From positions 268,001 through 332,000 of the forward strand of contig JAUQPB010000002.1 of the NCBI GenBank assembly GCA_030550585.1: a DNA stretch of 64,000 nt. Direction: 5' to 3'. Both the position numbers and the translations under genes were made by a program. A model generated the notes under the pieces. That model did no database searches. It was not told the DNA's origin and saw only the letters and a list, made by a program, of their open reading frames with translations. Shown here piece after piece: positions 5,292 to 28,717 of this stretch (positions are counted from its first letter, which is position 1; the number at the start of each line of letters is the position of its first letter). The DNA is from Thermoproteota archaeon. GTDB taxonomy: Archaea; Thermoproteota; Thermoprotei_A; Sulfolobales; Ignisphaeraceae.

Positions 5292-5792
5292 TCAGCTACT
5301 TTGTTTCCTCTCTATTTCAAGAGCTTTTCTATACTCTAGACTGTGCATCTCTAGCTTCTTCAAAACCTCTCTATTCGTTTTCACAAGCTCGTCTACCAGG
5401 TGGAGGTATCTGGCGACCCTTACAGCGTCTGGGGATATCTCAACAAGCTTCTCCCCATCAACTACAACATAGTGTTTCCTCTCAATCTTCTCACCAAGTA
5501 TATACTCAGCCTCGTTAACAGCTGCGTGAAGCTGGAAGCAGTGGGGACTACCATCAACTGTTACAACTGTTATCGACCTTGGCTTAGACGATCTGACTAT
5601 ACTCGCTATCTTTCCGTAGAGTGCTGGGTGCTCCCTCTCGGGACATGCATACAGAACTGTCTTTCCCTTCGCCAACTCCTCTACAATGCGGCTGTTTATG
5701 TTTCTCAGGCATGCCGATACTATGAGGAGGTCTCCTCTTAGACAAGGTGTTTTAACCCATGTGCTCCAAAGCCAGGATTCACACAAGCTCAT
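5292..5792 (-). CDS. Cysteine-containing protein of unknown function, coupled to thiC
   Basis: I do not recognise the family. The 166-residue protein has scattered conserved-looking cysteines ([35 protein letters not shown]), an alternating alpha/beta pattern ([36 protein letters not shown]) and an amphipathic, charged C-terminal helix. The start at 5792 is preceded by GGGGAGG at 5 nt, and the gene overlaps the end of thiC by 14 bp, so the two are almost certainly co-translated. Metal or Fe-S binding is possible from the cysteines but unproven. The thiC linkage suggests a role near thiamine pyrimidine synthesis, for example cluster supply or handling of the CO by-product; both are guesses. 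Confidence 0.7.
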
Positions 5793-7107
5793 ATGCGCCT
5801 CCCCTCTCAAGTCTCTTCAAAAGACTTTCTACAGATATCCCACCTCTGTTCTTAAGCCACTTGTCTAGAAGCAGAAAAACACAGTACTGTCCGCACATGG
5901 TGCAGCTCTTCAAGTTTCCCTCAAACTGTGTTCTGATGGCGAGAGCCTTTTTCGGGTCTGGAGATAGCTTTATCTGCTTCTCCCAATCGAGTACAGCCCT
6001 AGCCATACTCATCTCAGCGTCTACCCTACCAGCTCTAGAACCGAGCTTCACCAGATCCCCAGCGTGGGCAGCTATCTTAGCCGCTATAAGCCCCTCCTTA
6101 ACCTGCTCAGGATTTGGCAAACCCAGGTGCTCCGATGGTGTGAGATAGCATATGAGGTCAGCCCCAGCGGCAGAGGCTATTGCCGCACCTATAGCACTTG
6201 CTATGTGGTCATAGCCAGCAGCAGCATCTGTTACAAGTGGCCCTAGAACATAGTATGGGACACCCCCACTCAAACTCTTCATAAGCTTGATATCCACAAC
6301 AACCTTGTCTAGCGTCATATGCCCAGGGCCCTCAATCATCACTTGAACCCCCTTGCTTATAGCATCTCTAGCAAGCCTAGCATTGTTTACCAGCTCAGCT
6401 ATCTGAAGCTCATCATGAGCATCAAATATTGTTCCAGGTCTAAGAGCATCCCCAAGGCTTATAACAGCATTGTATTCTCTGAAAAGCTCTAGCAGATAAT
6501 CCCAGTGCTTGATATATGGATTCTCAGAATTGTTTTCAAGCATCCACACAGCCAGCATAGAACCACCTCTACTAACAATAGGCATAAGCCTATTGCTTTT
6601 CAAAGCCTTTTCAGCAAGCTCCTTAGATATCCCAGCATGTATAGTCATAAAGTCCACACCATCCCTAAGCTGCTTCTCAACAACAGAAATGAAGAAATCA
6701 GATGGTATGGACAACCCATACCTAGCAACACCCTCAATCCAAGCCTGATAAGTAGGCACAGTCCCAAAGGGAAGAGGCTTAGAAGCATCAATAAGCCTTT
6801 TCCTAACCTCATCAAGATCACCACCTGTTGATAGATTCATTATCGTATCAGAACCATATTCAACAGCAACCCTAGCCTTCTCAACCTCCATATCAATATC
6901 AACAACAGTTCCACTAGTACCAATATTCACATTAACCTTAGTCGAAAGCCCCTCACCAATAGCAACAAGCTTCAGACCTCTCCTTCTAACATTACCAAAA
7001 ACAACAATCCTACCACCCTCAACACCCCTCCTAACAAAATCTACATCAACACCTTCAGCACTAGCAACACCCTTAATCACACCTTCATCAATCGCTCTCC
7101 TACTCAT
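5779..7107 (-). CDS. thiC: Phosphomethylpyrimidine synthase ThiC
   Basis: ThiC is the radical-SAM enzyme that rearranges 5-aminoimidazole ribotide to HMP-phosphate in thiamine synthesis. Family motifs are present: the N-terminal [19 protein letters not shown], the ThiC signature [56 protein letters not shown] and [11 protein letters not shown]. The C-terminal 4Fe-4S motif is CTMCGQYC (about residues 402-409), which is CX2CX3C rather than the CX2CX4C usually quoted. The ATG at 7107 gives the expected N-terminus; a TATA-like element 20-30 nt upstream and no Shine-Dalgarno motif suggest a leaderless or near-leaderless message. It lies just beyond the distal end of the CRISPR array and is transcribed in the same direction. 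Confidence 0.95.
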
Positions 7108-7122
7108 GCCGAACAACCAAAA

Positions 7123-7139
7123 CAATATATGGTATTTAT
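7123..7139 (-). promoter_or_regulatory. Candidate thiC promoter (TATA region)
   Basis: On the minus strand this reads CATAAATACCATATATT, two overlapping TATA-like elements centred about 20 and 29 nt before the thiC ATG at 7107. That spacing fits a leaderless or very short-leader transcript. No riboswitch-like structure is evident in the remaining short gap. Confidence 0.4.
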
Positions 7140-7200
7140 GAATGTAAAGCATGAAAACACAGATATATAATCTTATCGCTATTCACTCAAAAATCCTAAC

Positions 7201-27322: not shown

Positions 27323-28717
27323 GTGCGTCTCTTGCATCTAATCTGCCCTGTTTGCGGATCTGCCTATGAATTCAATGTATACTCTAAACTGTGTCCAAGA
27401 TGCGGCTCACCGCTGTTTGTAATGCATAGCATTTCACCAGACACATTCAAAAAGGTCTTGCTGGAGGCTAGGCATAGGTGGAACCTTGGCATCTGGAGTT
27501 TCCACGAGGTTCTACCGACAAGCTCTATTGGGAAAACCATTGGAGAGGCGTGGACACCAATTATCAAAGTCGAAAACTTTAGCAGAATAACAGGTGTTGA
27601 AGTGCTAGTGAAAAACGAGTCGAGAAACCCTAGTGGGACATTTATTGATAGGGGGACGGCAGTCGATTCATATATAGCCTACGTAAATGGCTTTAAAGAT
27701 GTTGTCTCAGCCTCCACAGGAGACTATGCAATATCCTTGTCCATATACTCTAAGCTCTATGGTCTTAGCACAACGCATTATATCCCTATTTTTATTGAAC
27801 AGTGGAAGAGATATATGCTAATGGTGCTGGGCAGCAAAATTATAGAGGTTGACAGCTATTCGAATGCTGTTAGGAAGGCTATGAGAGTCTCGAACAAGAG
27901 TAGCAATTTCTTGTCGCTGTCCATGTCCCCTACGGTCATAGACGGCTACAGAACAATAGTGTTTGAGGTTGTAGATATTCTAAAAGAAATAGACTGGATT
28001 GCGGTACCTGTAGGCGATGGTGTGCTTGCAACATCTATTTTGAAGGGTTTAAAAGAGATAGAGGCCTATTTAGAAATTGAAACACCCAATATACTTGCTG
28101 TGAAGCTTGGTGAAGAGGATGGCGCTGAACAGGACTTCTCAAAGTTGTTCTTAACAGAGTTGGGCGGCGGCATGCTCAGAGATGTGCTAAACAAGATACT
28201 AGGTGAGAAAGGAGTTTTTGTAGCAATCGATAAAGAGGCTGTATATTCGACAACAAATGAGATAGCCTACTATGATGGTCTCTTGGTGGATCCCGTTGGG
28301 GCAACAAGCTTGGCGGGAATTAAAAAAGCTGTGGAGCTAGGGGTTATTGATAGAGGAGATAGGGTGTTGGCTATAGTCAGCGGCAGCCCATCGAAAGACA
28401 CATACATTCTCTTCAAAATTCTGGAATATGGAAGAAGAGGGACAGGGGGATATCCAAACCTTAGAGAAGGTTATATGAGTGAGGTACAGATAAACATTCT
28501 GAAGATACTCTATGAATCTCGGCAAATACACTTGTATGAGATATGGAAAAGGCTTCAAGCCATGGGGCATAAGATAACTCTTCAAACTGTGTACAGCCAT
28601 GTGAAGAAGTTGTTGGAGAAGGGGTATGTGAGAGTTCTTGGCGTGAATGGAAGGAGGAAGATATATTCGATATCAGAACTTGGGGAAGAGTATCTAGAGA
28701 ATATGTATAGTAGATAG
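27323..28717 (+). CDS. Threonine synthase-like protein lacking the PLP lysine, fused to a winged helix
   Basis: Residues 1-30 form a zinc ribbon (C8, C11, C24, C27) as in archaeal threonine synthases. Residues ~70-380 follow fold-type II PLP enzymes: KNESRNPSGTFIDRG, SASTGDYAISLSIYSK, VPVGDGVLATSILKG, VGATSLAGIKKAVELG, AIVSGSPSKD. The catalytic motif is normally SFKDRG; here it is TFIDRG, with Ile (about residue 108) replacing the PLP-binding Lys, and other PLP loops are altered. Residues ~388-464 are a winged helix-turn-helix (SEVQINILKILYESRQ, TLQTVYSHVKKLLEKGYVRV, NGRRKIYSISELGEEYLE). The likely role is a ligand-binding transcription regulator derived from threonine synthase (inference). 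The start is GTG 27323 or TTG 27332. Confidence 0.85.
   Translation: MRLLHLICPVCGSAYEFNVYSKLCPRCGSPLFVMHSISPDTFKKVLLEARHRWNLGIWSFHEVLPTSSIGKTIGEAWTPIIKVENFSRITGVEVLVKNESRNPSGTFIDRGTAVDSYIAYVNGFKDVVSASTGDYAISLSIYSKLYGLSTTHYIPIFIEQWKRYMLMVLGSKIIEVDSYSNAVRKAMRVSNKSSNFLSLSMSPTVIDGYRTIVFEVVDILKEIDWIAVPVGDGVLATSILKGLKEIEAYLEIETPNILAVKLGEEDGAEQDFSKLFLTELGGGMLRDVLNKILGEKGVFVAIDKEAVYSTTNEIAYYDGLLVDPVGATSLAGIKKAVELGVIDRGDRVLAIVSGSPSKDTYILFKILEYGRRGTGGYPNLREGYMSEVQINILKILYESRQIHLYEIWKRLQAMGHKITLQTVYSHVKKLLEKGYVRVLGVNGRRKIYSISELGEEYLENMYSR

Follow-up and report, generated by a model that had tools for sequence, protein, structure and literature searches.

A lysine-less threonine synthase-winged helix fusion in Thermoproteota, proposed as a PLP/B6-responsive transcription regulator

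In the present study, a 64,000-nucleotide stretch of genomic DNA from a Thermoproteota archaeon (hereafter the window) was found to encode P0001, a protein in which a threonine-synthase-like body without its catalytic lysine is joined to a winged helix. We consider it probable that P0001 is an enzyme-derived one-component regulator, which governs the uptake and synthesis of vitamin B6 by sensing PLP or another form of the vitamin. This reading is proposed because the loss of the lysine tracks the fusion, and because of the B6 genes next to fused genes, their co-occurrence across genomes and an operator shared between B6 promoters. For the family as a whole, we lean towards the view that lysine-less ThrC-PadR-like fusions in Thermoproteota and Asgard MAGs are the missing archaeal B6 regulator, a non-covalent PLP sensor that would have arisen independently of bacterial MocR. 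A search of the open-licence literature found neither this fusion nor any archaeal B6 regulator described.

P0001 is encoded by a single 464-aa open reading frame that starts with GTG (27323-28717, forward strand, as are all its domains below), and it was characterised by domain matches, alignment and AlphaFold2 modelling. An N-terminal zinc ribbon (27338-27427; C8, C11, C24, C27) is followed by a fold-type II threonine-synthase-like body (residues 74-362, 27542-28408), the proposed sensor domain, which is matched by Pfam PALP over residues 74-354 (1.7e-43). The ribbon cysteines are conserved in two alignments; among relatives C11, C24 and C27 are invariant and C8 is invariant or nearly so. 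The AlphaFold2 model, made from an alignment of 31 sequences, has a mean pLDDT of 87.8, and its body adopts the threonine-synthase fold with a TM-score of 0.79 to 6nmx (normalised by target). The best Foldseek matches of this body are threonine synthases, which are also the nearest solved relatives of P0001. The zinc ribbon and fold-type II body claimed in an earlier, sequence-only reading of the gene were thus borne out by the conserved cysteines, the PALP match and the structural searches.

Alignment with Lys-containing ThrC places Ile108 (codon 27644-27646) where the enzyme has its catalytic PLP lysine: P0001 reads NPSGTFIDRG here and canonical enzymes read NPTGSFKDRG. The cofactor loops have changed as well, from ASTGNT to ASTGDYAIS and from PVGNAGN to PVGDGVL, so both the substitution and the altered loops of that reading were confirmed. 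Since the Asn of the PLP loop has become Asp, the PLP affinity of P0001's subgroup is uncertain. It had also been feared that homologues retain the lysine and that the Ile is a sequencing error; a homologue search with alignment of the Lys position found this not to be general, four distant fused loci keeping Lys. The orthologues in the window's genus, which are 82, 66, 55, 46 and 44% identical to P0001, all carry Ile, and distant fused homologues have other non-Lys residues; a sequencing error at Ile108 was therefore ruled out. Across the fused proteins lacking Lys, the position is taken by R, I, L, V, M, A, T, F, Y or S, therefore the catalytic constraint on it is gone. P0001 shares with ThrC and NF004170 proteins the zinc ribbon and a fold-type II body for which ThrC is nearest, but it lacks the Schiff-base lysine of SFKDRG; judged by this defining lysine, P0001 would have no threonine synthase activity.

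That P0001 is a decaying pseudogene, or a neutral fusion without specific function, is barely credible. The catalytic residue is lost, and a second paralogue in the same genome is very divergent and has no standard start codon upstream of the part encoding the zinc ribbon. P0001 itself, however, is intact, its orthologues at 82, 66, 55 and 44% identity have open frames, and K97, D109 and R110, together with the zinc cysteines and winged-helix positions, are invariant or nearly so among relatives. As a separate observation, the genome has a further Lys-bearing ThrC-like gene (L132:6618-7681, forward strand) that appears split into frames of 241 and 82 aa, which suggests a frameshift or assembly error.

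The C-terminal domain of P0001 (residues 387-463, 28481-28711) is modelled as helix-helix-helix-strand-strand-helix, with a pLDDT of at least about 90 except in the last few residues; when folded alone, the domain reached 90.7. Residues 386-460 are matched by FUR/PadR/BlaI-type winged-helix models, and in Foldseek the isolated domain matches the DNA-binding domains of RosR, PadR, MarR and Fur. All 19 homologous winged-helix domains match PadR (PF03551) at E <= 0.01, and that of P0001 scores 27.6 bits on its own, against a cut-off of 27. The claim of a C-terminal winged helix therefore held in the AlphaFold2 models as well as in the PF03551 and Foldseek matches, and the predicted structure gave no sign of another kind of domain. 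P0001 thus resembles the PadR family in profile and structure. One helix (452-463) follows the wing, no PadR C-terminal dimerisation domain was seen, and the proposed sensor is, unlike in PadR proteins, the N-terminal PLP-enzyme body.

It is very unlikely that catalysis persists without the lysine, the winged helix being a protein-interaction or structural domain. Such an activity would suit the Arg-bearing subgroup, which keeps much of the PLP site (the GN loop, the GSGG loop and TGSGLK), and the four fused loci that keep Lys. Against it stand the drift of the Lys position to at least ten residues, the canonical Lys-bearing ThrC encoded in P0001's own genome, the PadR-like winged helix in 19/19 domains and a conserved transporter linkage (see below) that suits a regulator.

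Relatives with this architecture are spread across Thermoproteota and are also found in Asgard archaea, the carriers including Desulfurococcales, Bathyarchaeota, Terraquivivens, Nitrososphaerales, Jordarchaeum, Thorarchaeota and Lokiarchaeota MAGs. The scan of named genomes covered 80 loci, with a search pattern that stops before the Lys column. About 36 of the proteins found are fused, and all of these are without Lys except four (L189, L194, L201, L218); the unfused proteins keep it, except the short L251 (SYVDR). In a tree built on the body alone, from which the winged helix and the Lys column had been removed, fused and unfused proteins fall on opposite sides of one branch (support 66/95), so that a single origin of the fused proteins is moderately supported. 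The Lys position needs three changes on this tree, and the simplest reading would be one fusion with loss of Lys, after which Lys was regained twice inside the Arg group. The second paralogue in P0001's genome (SYADRA; G000:C1, about 94395-95550; L089:8396-9550, reverse strand) is also Lys-less. It opens right after the pdxT stop codon with no in-frame ATG, GTG or TTG ahead of the zinc ribbon, and may have a different start or an indel.

The NCBIfam model NF004170 aligns over the full length of P0001, winged helix included, with 174 bits, which is below the curated cut-off of 421 for membership. In the phylum search, the hits above this cut-off carry Arg at the Lys position in 7/7 cases. Apparently, NF004170/PRK05638 'threonine synthase' describes Lys-less winged-helix fusions under a wrong name, and through it automatic annotation probably mislabels the family.

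The gene neighbourhoods of the fused family point to vitamin B6. Among 65 fused loci examined, the same-strand +1/+2 gene codes for a small membrane protein, an ECF S component (PF07155), in 28 (8 GTDB families), and in 6 more, from 4 other GTDB families, the S component is divergent from the fused gene. In families f2 and f9, genes for a double ABC ATPase and an EcfT-like protein often come after the S component. Within two genes, a B6 transport or synthesis neighbour was present at 19/36 fused versus 0/43 unfused named loci (p 1e-8). The second paralogue lies directly 3' of pdxS-pdxT, its orthologue in G003 lies 2.8 kb from pdxS, and both G333 and the Nitrososphaerales MAG L199 carry a fused gene divergent from pdxST.

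It had been proposed to look among the neighbours of homologues for threonine or B6 genes; what was found is mostly ECF S or pdxST, while thrC adjoins mainly in GTDB family f21 and a few Bathyarchaeota MAGs. Canonical thrC and the fused gene are divergently arranged in f21 (G241, G422, G378, G206, G283, G440) and in the Bathyarchaeota loci L198 and L210, and in L229 thrC is close by. These loci, and the descent of the body from threonine synthase, would suit a Lys-less regulator of amino-acid genes that senses phosphohomoserine, threonine or homoserine. We regard this as unlikely, since most thrC-adjoining fused loci also have an S component directly downstream, the neighbours elsewhere are ECF S or pdxST, and the operator in the window's genus is common to ECF and pdxS promoters. 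Of the three ligands first offered for the sensor, PLP/B6 is thereby favoured by gene context, and homoserine phosphate and an amino acid are not.

P0001 itself is not beside B6 genes, and its link to B6 therefore runs through homologues and the shared motif. For the fused family, linkage to B6 genes or operator sharing with them is found; for P0001 it comes only through the shared operator and co-occurrence within the genus. The local context in the window was rejected as a functional clue, as the neighbouring genes pointed to no pathway: upstream are a 202-aa protein, an MGMT-like and an aminopeptidase-like gene, and downstream is a biotin carboxylase gene, a pairing that is kept mainly in close relatives. 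A thiC-like hydroxymethylpyrimidine synthase gene also lies in the window (5779-7152, reverse strand; G000:C7:273860-275080).

The only solved relative of the archaeal S component is HmpT (4hzu chain S), which was first named for hydroxymethylpyrimidine and is reported to transport pyridoxamine (PMC4860826). The family COG4720/PF07155 includes PdxU and PdxU2/HmpT (PMC9997740). In the archaeal proteins, the HmpT ligand residues E41 and D68 are kept in 40/42 and 42/42 loci, respectively, and invariant Lys and Glu stand in place of H84 and Q87 (42/42). To judge from these residues, the substrate site is uniform and differs from that of HmpT, and because of the replacements the exact substrate is not proven. 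Near the S component, and usually directly after it, an AIR-synthase/ThiL-fold gene was seen in 9 genomes of 5 families (for example L111:9338-10345, forward strand, and L158:6152-7174, reverse strand); in G002, a similar-looking gene is divergent from S. It is possible that this gene encodes a B6 kinase or related enzyme.

Co-occurrence was evaluated in 300 Thermoproteota genomes, 55 of which were fused-positive by full-length NF004170 matches; low-scoring fused members, such as P0001's own group, are outside these 55. PF07155 was present in 55/55 fused-positive genomes versus 115/245 others, and pdxS in 7/55 versus 137/245 (p 2.6e-5 with one genome per genus). The transporter and pdxS were nearly exclusive, with both in 31 genomes, the transporter only in 139, pdxS only in 113 and neither in 17 (p 8e-15, one genome per genus). 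As a control, the fused gene showed no association with thiC (genus p 0.84); since its association with pdxS is present and that with thiC absent, its B6 link is specific. PF07155 was also anticorrelated with thiC (p 1.7e-4), more weakly than with pdxS, and part of the complementarity between PF07155 and pdxS is therefore attributed to general auxotrophy or lineage. P0001's own genus has pdxS and the transporter both, and within it P0001 and the transporter are both present or both absent in 10/11 genomes.

These data also bear on the reading that another vitamin is regulated, such as through a thiamin or hydroxymethylpyrimidine ECF system. Such a role would agree with the first name of HmpT, with the AIRS/ThiL-fold gene that follows S in several genomes and with the anticorrelation of PF07155 and thiC. 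It is nevertheless quite unlikely, because the fused genes are associated with pdxS and not thiC, several are physically linked to pdxST, and the ECF operator recurs at pdxS promoters.

This candidate operator is a tandem repeat, TTCGATTA-N5-TTCGATTA, found in the window's genus at the ECF operon promoter and, in degenerate form, at three pdxS promoters. In the window's genome, the S-A-T ECF operon (G000:C4:651221 onward) lies in trans to P0001, and at its promoter (G000:C4:651130-651220) TTCGATTATATATTTCGATTA abuts a downstream TATA-like AAGCTTA. The TTCGATTATATATTTCGATTA element is conserved in G009, G003, G008 and G002, and the exact element occurs once each in G000, G009 and G003. A matrix trained on four S-operon sites was applied to 353 upstream regions and ranked the pdxS promoters of G008, G010 and G002, which were absent from training, at 6, 7 and 10 of 353; in these three genomes no fused gene was seen beside pdxST. 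No site was found at the S promoters of G006 and G014, where no P0001 orthologue was found; the sole congener having the transporter without P0001 lacks the site at its S promoter. G012 is an exception, with the fused gene present yet no site at its S operon. A site ahead of P0001 itself was looked for and not found, and genome-wide counts with up to two mismatches showed no excess over a reversed-pattern control; the informative operator evidence consists of the exact matches and the promoter-restricted test only. Another factor could bind the TTCGATTA site.

As for the B6-regulator reading, it is suggested that P0001 descends from a threonine synthase and that its Lys-less body is most likely a ligand site and not a catalyst. 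The candidate ligand would be PLP, a PLP-amino acid adduct or another B6 vitamer, held without a Schiff base to a lysine of the protein. Among the Foldseek matches, 3vsc is a Lys-to-Ala fold-type II enzyme crystallised with a PLP external Schiff base; therefore, a fold of this type is able to keep PLP bound when its lysine is absent. The body would report ligand occupancy to the C-terminal PadR-like winged helix, which we infer to bind DNA, covering the tandem repeat that adjoins the TATA-like element at B6-gene promoters. In the window's genome the proposed target in trans is the S-A-T operon, and close relatives have a similar site at pdxS as well. Loading of the sensor under B6 sufficiency would most likely repress uptake and synthesis, this direction of control being a guess.

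In bacteria, PdxR regulons include pdxST and pdxU, many MocR/PdxR proteins bind direct repeats, and MocR is reported to be absent from Archaea (PMC5320631). Like MocR/PdxR, P0001 is proposed to be an enzyme-derived one-component regulator with a PLP-enzyme sensor domain, and its context supports PLP-responsive control of B6 genes. The MocR/PdxR sensor is a fold-type I aminotransferase and its GntR winged helix is N-terminal, whereas P0001 has a fold-type II threonine-synthase body and a C-terminal PadR-like domain; unlike MocR/PdxR, it has lost the lysine and belongs to an archaeal family. On present comparison P0001 would work like MocR/PdxR yet is not a member, as fold, DNA-binding domain and domain order differ. 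The parallel to MocR-type regulators drawn from sequence, with another PLP fold and a C-terminal DNA-binding domain, is supported by the fusion-tied loss of Lys, the modelled winged helix and the linkage to transport and synthesis genes. Bacillus CysK is an O-acetylserine sensor partner of the CymR repressor, and thus also a fold-type II PLP enzyme that serves as metabolite sensor for a winged-helix regulator. CysK and CymR are two proteins and CysK stays an enzyme, whereas P0001 is one fused chain without the lysine.

If the proposal is true, archaeal B6 genes would be regulated by an independently recruited sensor of another PLP fold, convergent with MocR/PdxR, and the conversion of a PLP enzyme to a cofactor sensor after lysine loss would become testable. 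The annotation of a whole 'threonine synthase' protein family would be corrected. A B6 role would also be assigned to archaeal PF07155 transporters; vitamin B6 transport has been described as poorly studied (PMC9997740).

Two further kinds of repeat were observed near fused genes. In L124 and L125, upstream of the fused gene, inverted repeats resembling TCCTATATATAGGA were seen within or close to the interval that separates this gene from the divergent S component, and may possibly be an operator in another lineage. In L098, an inverted repeat, CAGTTAAGCGCAATTTAACTG, lies upstream of the fused gene, with canonical thrC on the opposite strand.
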